DNA of 25,623 nucleotides, taken from the IMG/VR virus record IMGVR_UViG_3300037475_000027, positions 1 through 25,623 of that record, one strand, 5' to 3'. Shown here piece after piece: positions 8,850 through 13,492 of this stretch (position 1 is its first letter; each line of letters opens with the position of its first letter). The position numbers and the translations under genes were made by a program. Source of the DNA: a virus. The notes under the pieces are model-generated. The model ran no database searches, had not been told where the DNA came from, and worked only from the letters and a program-made list of their open reading frames with translations.

Positions 8850-9514
8850 AAAGGGGGTTTGACCGTCTTGAACATCTTCCGTCTAGGCAACGCTTTAGAC
8901 AGTTGCCGCGTGGGAAGGCCATAGATAAGACAGTCCGCTTAGACGACGGCTCTGAGTGGTGTTTTGGGAGTTGGAACTGGGATTCCCATTGGCTTGCCCA
9001 TGCAGACATCAAACACCAACTAGGGGACAAGTACGACGAACTCCTACAGAAGTGGGAAGTAAAGAAGCAGGAATACCTTGATGCTTGGAGGCTTGAAGAT
9101 GCTATTTACAAGTCCGAGGTGCGCCATCGAGACCGAGCCAACAAGCACCTCGACTACTTCTCCAAAGGCATCAAGCGACTGCGCGCGGTCGGCGTGTTCA
9201 TCCAAAACTTGAATAGGCTTTGCACCCCTAAGCGTTACACCGAAATTGGTCACTACCTAGAAGACCCCTACTACATCGAACTCACTCACAAAAAGTTGCC
9301 CTGCATGACAATATCCACCAACGTTTTGATCCGCAGCATCTATGAAGATGTCTACAAGCCACTCCTTTCCGGCAAATTGAAGGTTGACAGGGCTCGCGTG
9401 GCTATCCAAGCAATGCAACAAATCTGCCACATGGCAGAGTTGCAGTTGGCCTACGAAGCCAGTCGCCGAGTGGGGAGCGACATCACAGTTGACATGCTGG
9501 AAAACCGTGCCTGA
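8846..9514 (+). CDS. Orphan 222-aa protein of lower GC
   Basis: ATG 8846 overlaps the helicase stop (ATGA). The protein is basic and helical, with an N-terminal Trp-rich patch (EWCFGSWNWDSHWLAHAD), a long charged middle (KYDELLQKWEVKKQEYLDAW) and a hydrophobic C-terminal helix region (VAIQAMQQICHMAELQLAYEAS). No membrane segment, signal peptide or catalytic motif stands out. Sampled 60-base blocks are 43-53 percent GC, clearly below the neighbouring genes, and AT-rich codons such as TTA and AAA are more frequent. This suggests later acquisition, as in a moron or accessory gene at an operon end. I do not recognise the family. Confidence 0.82.
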   Translation: MKRGFDRLEHLPSRQRFRQLPRGKAIDKTVRLDDGSEWCFGSWNWDSHWLAHADIKHQLGDKYDELLQKWEVKKQEYLDAWRLEDAIYKSEVRHRDRANKHLDYFSKGIKRLRAVGVFIQNLNRLCTPKRYTEIGHYLEDPYYIELTHKKLPCMTISTNVLIRSIYEDVYKPLLSGKLKVDRARVAIQAMQQICHMAELQLAYEASRRVGSDITVDMLENRA

Positions 9515-9531
9515 CTGGGCTATACTGCCCA
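9498..9531 (+). promoter_or_regulatory. Putative promoter with palindromic operator upstream of the HTH gene
   Basis: A -35-like TGGAAA (9498-9503, four of six matches) is 17 bases from a -10-like TATACT (9521-9526). The -10 sits in the centre of the inverted repeat TGGGC-TATACT-GCCCA (9516-9531). Such a palindrome over the -10, 27 bases before a helix-turn-helix gene, is the usual place for an operator. That the downstream protein binds it is inference. Confidence 0.45.
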
Positions 9532-9557
9532 CTCATTCAACCTTAGAAAGACCGACA

Positions 9558-9815
9558 ATGGCAACCGTTACCCCGAAGGAGCCCAAGCCGCAAATCACGC
9601 TGCTGGAGGCCATCACCACTCTCACCGAAAAGCACGGCTCACAAGCCGAAGCATCGCGCCAGACTGGCATCAACAAAACCTATTGGTCCCGCCTCTCGGC
9701 AGGCATCAAGGACTGGCCCAGCGATGACACCCTTGCGAAGCTGGGCCTGCGTCGTAACGTGAGCTATGAATGGGTCCGCCAACCGCGTGGCAAGAAAGCA
9801 TCAGCACAAGGGTAA
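9558..9815 (+). CDS. Small helix-turn-helix protein, putative repressor/regulator
   Basis: This 85-aa protein starts at ATG 9558; the longer in-frame ORF would run back into the preceding gene. Residues 27-50 read as helix-turn-helix: GSQAEASRQTGINKTYWSRLS, where SQAEASRQTG is the first helix and turn and NKTYWSRL the recognition helix. The remainder is a short helix (SDDTLAKLGL) and a basic tail (RQPRGKKA). This is the size of Cro-like or YdaS-like single-domain regulators. The palindrome at 9516-9531 just upstream could be its own operator. It separates the replication operon from the secreted-protein genes, so it might control either. Confidence 0.8.
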   Translation: MATVTPKEPKPQITLLEAITTLTEKHGSQAEASRQTGINKTYWSRLSAGIKDWPSDDTLAKLGLRRNVSYEWVRQPRGKKASAQG

Positions 9816-9841
9816 ATGCCTAACCGGGCATCCCTGATAAG

Positions 9842-9850
9842 TGCTACAGT
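9842..9850 (+). promoter_or_regulatory. Putative extended -10 promoter for the secreted-protein genes
   Basis: TGCTACAGT matches TGnTAnnnT and resembles the TGATACAAT at 2641. It lies in the gap after the HTH gene, inside a CTGATA...TATCAG inverted repeat (9834-9859 region). No clear -35 is visible. A start of transcription near 9857 would place hairpin 9859-9874 at the very 5' end of the RNA. Confidence 0.35.
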
Positions 9851-9858
9851 TCGTATCA

Positions 9859-9907
9859 GCCGCTGGAAAGCGGCAACCGCTGCCGGGTCGGCTACCCGGT
9901 TTGTTCT
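9859..9907 (+). promoter_or_regulatory. Two GC hairpins in the leader of the first secreted-protein gene
   Basis: GCCGCT (9859-9864) pairs with AGCGGC (9869-9874) around a GGAA loop. CCGGGT (9883-9888) pairs with ACCCGG (9894-9899) around CGGCT and is followed by TTTGTTCT. The second hairpin could be a weak terminator or attenuator placed just before the ribosome binding site. It could equally be an RNA-stabilising structure. Confidence 0.4.
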
Positions 9908-9921
9908 CTAGGAATCATCAA

Positions 9922-10563
9922 ATGAAGCGCATTCTTCTCTCCCTCGTCGCACTGGCAGCAGCCAGCGCGTTTGCCGCTGGCAACACCTCCACGGGTGCCG
10001 TCGTCGGTGCCGTCGCAACTTCGGGTTCGGGCACCGGCTCGTCGCTGTCGATTGCCAGCCAGCAACAAACCGCCGCCCAGACCAACGGCCAAGCATCGAC
10101 GTTCACGGGCTTCCCCACCACGACCGCCACCAGCGGCGTGCAGGGCTCCACGAACACCAGCACTTCCAGCCTGTCGGCCAACCTGTCCAGCGGCACGGGC
10201 GCTGGCGGCGCAGTGGCAGCGGGCACCTCGTCGGCCACGGCCAGCAACAGCACGGCCATCGGCATCAACGGCCTGACCCCTGCAACGTCGGCTTCGGGTT
10301 CGGGCGCTTCGGTGTCCAACTCGGCCACCGCTGCGGGTACCGACGGCTTTGCGATCCGCAACGGCTCGTCGGCCACGAACTATCAGGCCAACACCGCAGC
10401 CAGCTACAACTGGTTCACGCAAGCCGCTTCCAGCGGTGGCACGGCAACGGCAGGCGCTGCCACCGTGCAGCCGGGCTTCGGCAACCTGACGTTCGGCGCT
10501 GCTGGCGGTTTCATCGTCAACACTGGCGCTGCTGGCGCCACGGGCACCGCAACGACCCCGTAA
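9922..10563 (+). CDS. Secreted Ser/Thr/Ala/Gly-rich low-complexity protein
   Basis: This 213-aa protein starts at ATG 9922 with AGGA about nine bases upstream. Residues 1-18 are a Sec-type signal peptide (MKRILLSLVALAAASAFA) with likely cleavage at AFA/AG. The mature chain is nearly all Ser, Thr, Ala, Gly and Asn, with irregular repeats such as SGSG and SSATASNS. There is one more structured-looking stretch near the end (NYQANTAASYNWFTQ, then FGNLTFGAAGGFIV). There are no cysteines and few charges. It would be exported to the periplasm or beyond. The composition recalls adhesin or fibre-like passenger proteins, but no family is recognised. A strong terminator follows, so it can be transcribed separately from the next gene. 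Confidence 0.82.
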   Translation: MKRILLSLVALAAASAFAAGNTSTGAVVGAVATSGSGTGSSLSIASQQQTAAQTNGQASTFTGFPTTTATSGVQGSTNTSTSSLSANLSSGTGAGGAVAAGTSSATASNSTAIGINGLTPATSASGSGASVSNSATAAGTDGFAIRNGSSATNYQANTAASYNWFTQAASSGGTATAGAATVQPGFGNLTFGAAGGFIVNTGAAGATGTATTP

Positions 10564-10585
10564 TCCACACGGAAGACGGACAACC

Positions 10586-10611
10586 AAAGGGGGCCACTGT
10601 GCCCCCTTTTT
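10586..10611 (+). terminator. Rho-independent terminator after the first secreted-protein gene
   Basis: AAAGGGGGC (10586-10594) pairs with GCCCCCTTT (10601-10609) around a CACTGT loop, and the T-run continues to 10611. This is a strong intrinsic terminator on the + strand. The A-run at its 5' side gives some terminator character on the - strand as well, though no minus-strand gene needs it here. Confidence 0.85.
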
Positions 10612-10635
10612 CAAAACAACCAACCGGAAATCATC

Positions 10636-11283
10636 ATGAAGCGTTCACTTGTCACCCTTGCCCTGCTGGCTGCATTCGCTGCCAATGCTCAGGACAGCAA
10701 CTCCAACAGCACGGCCAACGCTGGCGCGTCCTCCAACCCCGTTGTCTCCAACGGCACCTCCAACTCGTCCAGCGGCGTCAGCGGCGTTGTGGCTGCATCT
10801 TCCAGCGATCCGAACAACTCGGCCACGCAGATGATCCAACTCAACACCTTCAACCCTGACCAGACGCATGCGACCGTTGACAGCACCTCCACCCAGAACA
10901 GTGTCGTATCCGGAGGCGTCACCAACCGCAACATCAACGAAGGCACCAGCACCCAGAACGTCCACTACAGCGGAAGCCAGACTGTCAAGAACGTCCCCGG
11001 TATCGCTATGTCTGGACCTGCTTCTGGACCTTGCACCGGGGCCAGCGGTGGTATCGGCCTCGCGGGACCCGGATGGGGTGTGGGTCTTAACGGTTCGGCG
11101 GTGATGGACGATTGCCGGATGCGCGAGAACACGCGGGTGCTGGGCATGGGCATGCAGTCGCTGGACGGCGCCGCCAACCCGCAGGAGAAGGGCGAAGCCA
11201 CGGTGATGTTCATGGATGCCATGCGCGGTCTGGCCGCGTACAACCGCACGCTGATCGACAAGGCAACGAAGGAGTCCAAGTAA
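10636..11283 (+). CDS. Secreted phage protein with a C-terminal PC...DDC domain
   Basis: This 215-aa protein starts at ATG 10636. Residues 1-19 form a signal peptide (MKRSLVTLALLAAFAANAQ). Residues 20-110 are Ser/Asn/Thr-rich low complexity, similar in style to the previous protein. From about residue 118 there is a distinct domain: VPGIAMSGPASGPCTGASGG, then GPGWGVGLNGS, then MDDCRMREN. It has two cysteines likely to form a disulfide, followed by a Met-rich helix region. Secreted phage and prophage proteins with a Pro-Cys, Gly-rich, Asp-Cys-x-x-Arg arrangement are familiar to me from lysis-proximal regions, with no known function. It ends in an overlap with the next gene (TAATG). Confidence 0.82.
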   Translation: MKRSLVTLALLAAFAANAQDSNSNSTANAGASSNPVVSNGTSNSSSGVSGVVAASSSDPNNSATQMIQLNTFNPDQTHATVDSTSTQNSVVSGGVTNRNINEGTSTQNVHYSGSQTVKNVPGIAMSGPASGPCTGASGGIGLAGPGWGVGLNGSAVMDDCRMRENTRVLGMGMQSLDGAANPQEKGEATVMFMDAMRGLAAYNRTLIDKATKESK

Positions 11284-11567
11284 TGAAGCGCGCTGCCCTG
11301 CTCCTTGCACTGGTGGCGCCCTTTGCCGTCAGTGCCCAAGGCTTCTCTGATCACACGACCTGCTATAGCTGGAACGGCGGCAACCACTCATCCGGTTCGT
11401 TCATCCAGTGCGACACCTACAAGGTGGCAGAGAAGCGGTCGGCACCGCTGCCAGCACCCGTGGTCCAGTCGCCCGTCATGATGCCGATGGCAGCGCCTGT
11501 GACCTGTGCGCCGCCGCCCAAGCCAGTGGTGACCAAGCGGAAGCACAAGCCGTTGCCCAAGTGTTAA
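11283..11567 (+). CDS. Small secreted Pro-rich protein
   Basis: This 94-aa protein starts at ATG 11283, sharing one base with the preceding TAA. Residues 1-18 form a signal peptide (MKRAALLLALVAPFAVSA) with cleavage before QGF. The mature part has an N-terminal Cys-containing segment (HTTCYSWNGGNHSSGSFIQCD). A Pro-rich region follows (PLPAPVVQSPVMMPMAAP, then PPPKPVV), and a basic end (KRKHKPLPKC) closes the chain. Four cysteines suggest disulfides in the periplasm. Pro-rich secreted proteins of this size occur among o-spanins, but there is no lipobox cysteine at the cleavage site, so that call is not supported. An intrinsic terminator begins ten bases after the stop. Confidence 0.8.
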   Translation: MKRAALLLALVAPFAVSAQGFSDHTTCYSWNGGNHSSGSFIQCDTYKVAEKRSAPLPAPVVQSPVMMPMAAPVTCAPPPKPVVTKRKHKPLPKC

Positions 11568-11576
11568 ACACGGATT

Positions 11577-11596
11577 AGGCCCTTCGGGGCCTTTTT
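11577..11596 (+). terminator. Rho-independent terminator between convergent operons
   Basis: AGGCCC (11577-11582) and GGGCCT (11587-11592) pair around a stable TTCG tetraloop, followed by a T-run to 11596. It ends the + strand secreted-protein unit. Its last base is also the first base of the minus-strand gene's stop codon complement. On the - strand no T-run follows, so stopping of late transcripts here would be weaker. Confidence 0.88.
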
Positions 11597-13116
11597 CATG
11601 CGTCTTCCTCAATCTCTTCCTTGAGTTTCTTGCGCTGGGCTTCCGCGATGATCGGCGCGTAGGCCGCTTTCATGAAGGCCAGATCAGCCGCGCTGCCAGC
11701 CGTCCCGCCCGGCCTCCAACGCCCGGTTCCAGCCATCCCCGTGCTGCCAGAACCGCTCAGGAGCCCTTGGGCCATACCTACCCCGCCTGAGCCCCCTTGC
11801 GCGCCTCCTGCGCCTCCTGCGCCGCCCATGAGCGCGTTGGTGACGGCGCCTGAGCCGTACTTGGCGACCAAGCCAGCCAGTTGCGGGTTCATGCCCGATC
11901 CGCTCAGGCCCGTTCCGGCCAGCGAGGCGAGCCCGGAGCCCAGCGCAGCGCGCTTCCAGTCGCCGCCAGACGCCGCAGCGCCAGCGCCGCTCAGGCCAGC
12001 GCTCACCGCTGCCTTGCTGGCCCACGCGGGCATACCCGTCGCGCCAGACAGCGCCGCGCCACCGTAGGCGCCAGCACCGCCAGACAGGCCACCCAGCGCA
12101 GCGCCCTTGAGCACGCCCTGCCAGCCGCCGCCGTTCAGGCCACCGCTGACACCGCCTTGGATCGCGCCCAGAACGGCGGCTTGTTCGACGGCGGAGAGGC
12201 CACCCCAGATTGCCGCCGCCTGCGGACCCAACGCGCTGGCGACGGCGCCAGAGACGCCAGAGAGCCCTGCTCCCGTGCCAGCCGCCGCAGCACCAGTACC
12301 AGCCGCCGTGCCAGCAGCCGAGCCAGCCGCCGCACCAGAAGCCGCACCGCCGCCAGAGGCAGCAGCGCCAGCACCCGCAGCGCCCACGCCTGCGAGCCCG
12401 GCACTGGCAACCAGTGCGGCACCGATGATGGCGACCTTGGCAGGTCCGTGCTCGGCCAGCCACGAGCCCTTTTCAGCGGCATGGCTGACGGTCGGGTCGT
12501 TGACGGCGCGCAGCGTGCCGCCGTCGTTCTTGTACAAGGTCGTTGCGGCTTCACGTGCATCCCCTGTTCCACCCCAGCCGCCCGTCAGGGCCTTCAGGGT
12601 GACGTAGTTCTGGCCCTCGTTCTCCAGCGCCTTGCGGGTGTTCTCGATCTGGCCTGCGTCGTCCAGTCGGTAGTTCGAGAGGTCGAAGCCCATGCGCTGC
12701 GCGATGGTCTTGAGTTGTTCCGGCGTCTCGTTGCCGCCGCCGATGTAGGTCGGGTCGAACTGCTTCAGGCCCGTGGTGACGCCGCCATAGTCGGCCACCT
12801 TGCCCAGCGCGTTGAACTTGTCCCAGCCTGCCTGACTGGACACGTCGTAGGTGGGTGCCTTGGTGGTCGTGCTGTAGGTCAGCGGGGAGCCACCCGCCAA
12901 GCCGTACGTGTCCTTGAAGTAGTTGTTGTAGTTGGCCTGCATCTCAGGGCTCATGCCGCCCGACATGCCCGACTGGGCAGCGGGCGACGAGAGCCCTACC
13001 TGATCGCCGCCCGCCTGCCCGCCCATGGCAAGCTCCTGCTTGCGCATGAGGGCCTGCATGGACGCCTCGTTCGCGTCCATGGGCTTTCCGGGATACCAAC
13101 CGAAGTCATCGGCCAT
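11596..13116 (-). CDS. Large Ala/Gly-rich virion protein, probable DNA-ejection protein
   Basis: The start is ATG at 13116, preceded by GGAGG six bases upstream and overlapping the previous gene as TAATG; a GTG 15 bases upstream is less likely. The 506-aa product has a polar N-terminal third (Gln/Met/Gly, then YNNYFKDTYG and alpha-helical segments). From about residue 225 it is a very long Ala/Gly/Ser region with many GxxxG-type spacings and hydrophobic patches (AKVAIIGAALVASAGLAG, then AAIWGGLSAVEQAAVLGAI). The C-terminus is charged (EAQRKKLKEEIEEDA). Composition and place at the end of the virion operon fit internal proteins that enter the host envelope during DNA ejection. That role is inferred from composition and synteny only. 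Confidence 0.72.
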   Translation of the reverse strand: MADDFGWYPGKPMDANEASMQALMRKQELAMGGQAGGDQVGLSSPAAQSGMSGGMSPEMQANYNNYFKDTYGLAGGSPLTYSTTTKAPTYDVSSQAGWDKFNALGKVADYGGVTTGLKQFDPTYIGGGNETPEQLKTIAQRMGFDLSNYRLDDAGQIENTRKALENEGQNYVTLKALTGGWGGTGDAREAATTLYKNDGGTLRAVNDPTVSHAAEKGSWLAEHGPAKVAIIGAALVASAGLAGVGAAGAGAAASGGGAASGAAAGSAAGTAAGTGAAAAGTGAGLSGVSGAVASALGPQAAAIWGGLSAVEQAAVLGAIQGGVSGGLNGGGWQGVLKGAALGGLSGGAGAYGGAALSGATGMPAWASKAAVSAGLSGAGAAASGGDWKRAALGSGLASLAGTGLSGSGMNPQLAGLVAKYGSGAVTNALMGGAGGAGGAQGGSGGVGMAQGLLSGSGSTGMAGTGRWRPGGTAGSAADLAFMKAAYAPIIAEAQRKKLKEEIEEDA

Positions 13117-13334
13117 TAGCGCCTCCAGCACTCCCTTGGGAGGATCAGACGAGGGTGGCGCTCAACACGTGCGCGCCATTCACGGCAGTAGCGTTGGTGC
13201 TCACGCCATTGCCGATGGCGCTCGCGTTGGTCCCACTGGGGTTGGTGTGGGTTCTGGTCCCTCAGGTCGTAGCGCTGCTGTGCGTAAACCGGGATTACCA
13301 GACAGGCAACAAAGAGAGCGAGGAGCCAGCGCAT
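13116..13334 (-). CDS. Small secreted Arg/His-rich protein
   Basis: The ATG at 13334 overlaps the previous stop (TGATG) and has GGAGG seven bases upstream, giving 72 aa. Residues 1-18 look like a signal peptide (MRWLLALFVACLVIPVYA) with cleavage before QQ. The mature chain is extraordinarily rich in Arg, His, Gln, Trp and Glu (WDQRERHRQWREHQRYCREW). It ends ECWRR, with two cysteines. It could be a periplasmic factor in lysis or envelope disruption, since it follows a two-helix membrane protein. There is no good lipobox, so I do not call it a spanin lipoprotein. It is absent from any simple long-ORF view because the frame is open further upstream. Confidence 0.72.
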   Translation of the reverse strand: MRWLLALFVACLVIPVYAQQRYDLRDQNPHQPQWDQRERHRQWREHQRYCREWRARVERHPRLILPRECWRR

Positions 13335-13492
13335 CACAACCTCCACACAACGGTGCCCGCCAGCGCAGCGAGCACGCAGAAGGCGAGGCCCGCCGCCAGC
13401 AGATTGAACCGTGGCGGGCTTGGGGTGTTGAGCGTTGCCAGCACGAACAACACCAGCGCCACCACCAGAAAGACAACAGTGATGATGTTCAT
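13334..13492 (-). CDS. 52-aa membrane protein with two helices, possible holin
   Basis: The ATG at 13492 is in an ATGA overlap with the preceding gene and the TGA overlaps the next ATG, so it is fully coupled. The 52-aa product is nearly all hydrophobic: helix one at residues 3-20 (IITVVFLVVALVLFVLA), a short TPSPPR turn, and helix two at about 29-49 (FNLLAAGLAFCVLAAL), ending in WRL. Two-helix hairpins of this size include class II-type holins, and the neighbour is secreted, which would fit a lysis pair. However, small PSPP-x-NLLA membrane proteins of unknown role are also common in phages. Holin is therefore only a candidate. Confidence 0.75.
   Translation of the reverse strand: MNIITVVFLVVALVLFVLATLNTPSPPRFNLLAAGLAFCVLAALAGTVVWRL

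Follow-up and report, generated by a model that had tools for sequence, protein, structure and literature searches.

The window, by which we mean the whole stretch of DNA that was analysed, is a 25.6 kb phage fragment. Its rightward strand carries the replication genes (DNA polymerase, nuclease, SNF2-type helicase and, at 9558-9815, a small HTH protein), and virion genes run leftward from the right end of the window to meet them; the major capsid protein is 65% identical to its counterpart in Stenotrophomonas phage BUCT555. The last genes of the rightward strand, directly ahead of the convergent virion genes, are three open reading frames that we call A, B and C. The initial annotation had placed three consecutive secreted-protein genes at 9922-11567, and three plus-strand reading frames with signal-peptide starts are indeed found there.

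Gene A (9922..10563, + strand, 213 aa) was recognised from its reading frame and composition as coding for a secreted low-complexity protein. It is followed by an intrinsic terminator or attenuator at 10587..10608 (+ strand; AAGGGGGCCACTGTGCCCCCTT and then TTTC), assigned from its folding energy against shuffled sequences and from its presence in relatives. Gene B (10636..11283, + strand, 215 aa) is defined by alignments and profile comparison and gene C (11283..11567, + strand, 94 aa) by its coupling to B, the stop codon of B and the start codon of C sharing one base (TAATGA overlap); both encode predicted exported proteins. A hairpin scan places a terminator-like hairpin at 11577..11592 (+ strand), which closes the A-B-C unit and faces the virion genes, and no promoter for the unit was recognised in a scan of the window. 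On the opposite strand, a gene at 13334-13492 (-) encodes a protein of 52 aa that has two hydrophobic segments, resembles a holin by eye and has no PHROG match, and the gene that follows it (13116-13334, -) encodes another exported basic protein with relatives in contigs L001 and L012-L014.

All three proteins start with a Sec signal peptide, composed of a positive n-region, a hydrophobic core and an A-x-A site, as had been proposed in the form of MKR plus a short Sec signal. The signals were called by a rule-based test and thus stand for predicted export. They are of the cleavable type only: none of the three proteins has a lipobox or a transmembrane anchor. By the same rule, 68 of 101 genes lying within 0.9 kb of a B gene (B counted in) carry a signal, against 8 of 113 genes farther off in the same phage loci, and 76 of 81 B proteins start with one. 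The mature parts differ from each other, in agreement with the initial annotation: A is of low complexity and lacks Cys, B passes from a low-complexity stretch to a two-Cys core, and C combines a Cys pair with a Pro/Lys tail. The remark that phages rarely export three neighbours holds for the typical phage gene (7% with signal peptides) and fails for the A-B-C cassette, which is widespread.

The near-copied starts of the three genes had drawn attention to this locus. The string ATGAAGCG opens A, B and C, and this 8-mer occurs four times in the window against 1.06 +/- 0.89 expected, a count reached in none of 100 shuffles. The string GGAA(A)TCATC lies upstream of A and B only among the three genes, exactly as first described. 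The sharing is therefore real and over-represented. As evidence of kinship, on the other hand, it does not stand: orthologues of A, B and C begin with MKK, MKH, MRK or MKT, written with differing codons, and the string in front of the genes is a weak Shine-Dalgarno sequence of the usual kind that varies freely among relatives. For these reasons we regard the near-copied starts as a coincidence of signal-peptide n-regions. Gene duplication was rejected as their origin, since the orthologues differ in both start codons and mature parts.

Mature A consists to about 83% of G, S, A, T, N and Q, with two charged residues and no Cys. A secreted gene of this type lies directly upstream of B in 15 of 15 close phage relatives. 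Under a strict rule, it adjoins B in 49 of 81 B loci and is found in 1 of 2901 distant control ORFs, a rule that misses several visible A neighbours such as that of Bradyrhizobium (L120). A comparison of phage A with bacterial A by hhalign gives 90% over low-complexity sequence, and because of this low complexity the resemblance is a likeness of kind and not proof of homology. The AlphaFold predictions for A and B were of low confidence (mean pLDDT of 41 and 45, respectively), so the formation of a fibre or complex is without structural support.

The hairpin between A and B has a folding energy of -14.5 kcal/mol, and none of 200 dinucleotide shuffles was equally strong. It is kept in all 11 tight-group loci checked, the window and 10 others (-14.5 to -26.8 kcal/mol), being stronger in each of those 10 than in the window; 0 of 200 shuffles were as strong in each of seven loci tested. 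The element is not seen in the more distant L015 and L017, and it was not among the terminators listed by a tool scan of the window. With a terminator at this place, A is predicted to be produced in larger amounts than B and C.

Window B has a signal peptide, an S/N/T-rich linker, a core of the form YSGSQTxKNVPGIAMSGPASGPCTGxSGG...C and predicted C-terminal helices. The two Cys of this core (C133 and C160) are invariant in alignments of close relatives. When B was used to search viral contigs, 15 close relatives were recovered; in all of them A and B are adjacent, and C follows wherever the DNA continues beyond B, so that the search for the triplet in related phages, proposed at the outset, was positive.

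Searches of Pfam, PHROGs and NCBIfam gave nothing meaningful for window A, B or C, the NF053838 match to B being weak (16.7 bits, cut-off 40) and covering the signal peptide and linker only. Window B has no direct match to phrog_20531, a family of unknown function, the sequence being too divergent. The B proteins of L044-L046 do match it, with up to 98 bits, and link window B to the family as a homologue through intermediates. The alignment shows the conserved SGxQTxKxxP...CxGxxSGG...C core of this exported family to be present in window B, with the third and fourth Cys lost. A sequence search of the PDB returned nothing useful for window B or for C', the C-position protein of T4-like contigs described below. 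Similarly, tblastn of window B and C against cultured phages gave no match, and cultured phages were reached only via intermediates.

Distant relatives of B were collected by stepwise profile searches, and our own HMM identifies 81 distinct B ORFs in the fetched loci, not all of them independent. The carriers comprise podo-, sipho-, T4-like and jumbo-phage contigs, the T4-like and jumbo ones reaching 368 kb, together with Achromobacter and Pelagibacter phages and bacterial chromosomes. Among cultured phages, relatives of B were met in Achromobacter JWAlpha/JWDelta and in several Pelagibacter and Roseobacter phages, all of them annotated as hypothetical. Some distant contigs have the reversed order B-A. 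In the siphophage contigs L017 and L018, A-B directly follows the tail-tip J and fibre genes; downstream of A-B, L017 encodes a lipoprotein-like zinc metalloprotease (8966-9964; HEFGHALGFAHEQNRP). In the T4-like group, A-B-C' is usually followed by a YkuD L,D-transpeptidase-like gene scoring 21-22.4 bits, just under the cut-off of 23.4. This gene (phrog_38499) lies at L045:3048-3413, L046:6853-7215, L072:7120-7476 and L073:3209-3571, among other T4-like and jumbo contigs. Three Pelagibacter phages (L053:4809-7864, L055:658-3170 and L058:4770-7108) have the gene for B followed first by one for a large acidic protein, whose start is export-like, and then by one for a membrane-anchored coiled-coil protein, and in Pelagibacter phage HTVC023P an M15 peptidase gene comes soon after B and the membrane-anchored coiled-coil gene.

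Gene C encodes an invariant core, TCYSWNGGxHSSGSFxxC, which holds the Cys pair, and a Pro/Lys-rich tail with a terminal Cys. Every contig that carries a C relative in our viral-contig search carries B too. In the T4-like group the place of C is taken by C' (unit A-B-C'), another exported protein that has two Cys; homology between C and C' is unsupported, with only 8 aligned columns.

Many close relatives have one extra gene between B and C, which matches Acb2 (PF24729) with 45.6 and 47 bits against a cut-off of 27. Acb2 is an anti-CBASS sponge that acts on cyclic nucleotides in the cytoplasm, and its sequence, that of the Acb2/Tad1 sponge family, is unrelated to A, B and C. PF24729 was found in 5 of 10 records, and by an ORF motif also in L002 and L007-L009; it is absent from the window. 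The gene is present in L012 (6591-6815) and L004 (6588-6824) and missing from L013 (at 6591) and L005 (at 4812), with breakpoints at the start/stop overlaps of B and C, while the pairs are otherwise 90% (L012/L013) and 97.8% (L004/L005) identical. On these sequence comparisons the B/C junction is a natural slot for one-gene anti-defence cargo.

B is also found in replicons of Burkholderia, Variovorax, Novosphingobium and Bradyrhizobium, and in 5 of 399 sampled genomes from the phylum of these bacteria. In Variovorax paradoxus the A-B-C' operon comprises INQ48_36000 to INQ48_36010. Bacterial B genes have A-type (and C') neighbours, and phage genes are absent nearby wherever the context was read. 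Profile comparison shows window-type and bacterial B to be homologous (hhalign probability 98.9, E 2.9e-17), and no window-type B was found in bacterial genome contigs. In Novosphingobium humi (L124:7638-8759), B carries a fused peptidoglycan-binding OmpA domain (64.5 bits, cut-off 27.2), which is the source of the OmpA-type PDB matches of the bacterial B profile.

Regulatory genes lie beside several bacterial copies. A VpsR-domain sigma-54 activator adjoins Burkholderia A-B, response regulators flank the Variovorax copy, and a LuxR-type response regulator adjoins that of L090. The Burkholderia cenocepacia locus (L122:6249-11575) holds two A-type genes, a gene for a 93 aa exported protein, B and a gene for another exported protein beside the activator, and its A-B genes are unannotated in the record used. 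Contigs L085-L090 (IMG/VR 2561511126, 2687453271, 648276631 and 2839360298), with A-B-C' beside a LuxR response regulator, derive from isolates and are classed as viral; these stretches look chromosomal and not phage. In Vibrio, VpsR governs genes for biofilm polysaccharide, and its relative BerB governs biofilm exopolysaccharide in Burkholderia cenocepacia (PMC5552954). The VpsR-domain activator beside the Burkholderia genes may control A-B.

On a tree of B built from 102 columns and showing long branches, the bacterial rows need 6 label changes, of which at least 5 are forced by well-supported branches, indicating that B was exchanged between phages and bacteria more than once. The clade of the window is phage-only (100/99).

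The closest precedent that we could identify is curli. Aggregation, sibling capture and superinfection defence have been put forward as functions of the curli modules found in pelagiphages (PMC9599517), and the curli/type VIII secretion modules of pelagiphages and methylophages are, like A-B-C, bacterial-derived exported cassettes carried by phages (PMC9599517, PMC9004378). The curli subunit and A are both uncharged secreted proteins rich in Gly, Asn, Ser and Gln. Phage curli modules and A-B are both exchanged between distant phages, with a role in aggregation or superinfection proposed, and as csgGF follows thymidylate synthase in Melnitz, so does A-B in L004, L012 and L050. Unlike curli, however, A lacks curlin repeats and matches no Pfam family at E<=1, the locus has neither FecR nor adenylate cyclase, and the B and C families are unrelated by sequence; the CsgG outer-membrane pore was found in 0 of 9 records, including the window (a fragment). 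A-B-C was therefore rejected as curli, lacking both curlin repeats and CsgG, and we infer instead that the cassette may act like a phage-borne curli system without being one. A second comparison is offered by the envelope proteins of phage superinfection exclusion (S-layer-like proteins, T4 Imm/Sp), which are envelope-directed, act before lysis and are not part of the virion, as A, B and C would be, although the latter have no sequence match to them in Pfam, PHROGs or NCBIfam. No functional experiment on any member of the cassette was found in the open-access papers searched.

We tentatively favour, at somewhat less than even chances, the explanation that A-B-C is a transferable exported cassette, common to phages and bacteria, whose products coat or remodel the infected cell's surface ahead of lysis, with superinfection exclusion or aggregation as the likeliest purpose. 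The phage would express A, B and C as the last genes of the rightward replication operon, a position in keeping with a function exerted ahead of lysis, for instance exclusion or blocked adsorption, and the Sec pathway of the host would export the products. Owing to the terminator behind its gene, A would outnumber the other two proteins and serve as the bulk subunit; B, with its extended polar linker and disulfide-type core, would partner A and be anchored in the envelope, and C would be a small accessory factor. The three might form a coat on the infected cell that keeps competing phages off by exclusion or adsorption blocking, or that causes infected cells to aggregate. Comparative support for the envelope role suggested by the initial annotation comes from the OmpA fusion of B, the L,D-transpeptidase-like neighbours in T4-like and jumbo contigs and the biofilm-type regulators beside bacterial copies. 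Because no outer-membrane export pore was identified and CsgG is absent, the proteins might remain periplasmic. A more specific proposal, which we consider doubtful, holds that Pseudomonadota possess an undescribed, non-curli system that builds a proteinaceous fibre or coat on the cell surface, with A as its subunit and B as its envelope anchor; lytic phages, from small podoviruses to jumbo phages, would have captured it repeatedly and would use it to re-dress the infected cell.

Exported proteins could also serve lysis, weakening or gating the outer membrane or peptidoglycan late in infection in the manner of spanins and disruptins, or delaying it. The surroundings of B in Pelagibacter phages, with an M15 endolysin and membrane or coiled-coil genes, fit such a link and count against the envelope or surface reading; the L,D-transpeptidase-like gene of the T4-like loci, the cationic, Pro-rich tail of C and the failure to find any of four endolysin families in the 44 kb relatives also speak for it. 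Still, A, B and C have no lipobox, transmembrane anchor or muralytic domain and no Pfam or PHROG lysis match, and the cassette closes the replication-gene strand of the window, opposite the virion genes. As to adjacency to an endolysin, the picture is mixed: none was seen beside the window cassette, but Pelagibacter B does lie near M15. The lysozyme of the L015 phage is about 40 kb from the cassette, and bacterial chromosomal A-B operons have no phage or lysis context. Lysis timing, one of the roles first put forward, is thus disfavoured as the main one, and a lysis accessory appears unlikely overall. The window-phage relative G001 (L064-L066; 43.7 kb, near full length for the group) has no recognisable endolysin or holin among the families tested, and its lysis genes may be unusual.

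Another view is that A-B-C is neutral or host-benefit cargo, i.e. captured bacterial surface or biofilm genes that help infected cells as a population to take up nutrients, attach or aggregate, and do not act against competing phages. The repeated exchange with bacterial operons, the VpsR- and LuxR-type regulators and the similar role of sibling capture proposed for phage curli (PMC9599517) argue for this view, which we nevertheless find questionable: gene order, coupling and terminator are conserved over large divergence in lytic-type phages, which speaks against neutrality, and the window-type clade has no bacterial copy among the bacterial genome contigs. Very unlikely, in turn, is a role as virion or virion-decorating proteins, or as periplasmic factors delivered with the tail. 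It would suit the position of A-B behind the tail genes in L017/L018 and the Ser/Gly/Ala low-complexity stretches common in fibres, and is opposed by the signal peptides of B and the free-standing bacterial operons. In a virion gel of JWAlpha/JWDelta, all analysed bands but one (a Big_2 protein) came from structural-strand genes; the B gene lies outside that strand, which again argues against a virion role as far as the visible bands covered by the gel (PMC3915230). Finally, the acb2 gene between B and C in many close relatives could mean that A-B-C acts with Acb2 against host immunity. We judge this highly improbable, given that acb2 is cleanly missing from otherwise near-identical phages and from the window, that A, B and C look exported while the target of Acb2 is cytoplasmic, and that bacteria carry A-B themselves.

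The role of the cassette is directly testable, as it is carried by cultured phages (Achromobacter JWAlpha/JWDelta and Pelagibacter phages) and by culturable bacteria (Variovorax). The clean presence or absence of acb2 between B and C points to a site in the cassette at which anti-defence genes land, and this slot offers a practical guide to further ones. Our analysis brings out a hidden exported gene pair that is common to unrelated phages and bacterial chromosomes, nearly all copies seen being without a functional name. Should the cassette indeed re-dress infected cells, phages would carry a second surface system next to curli.
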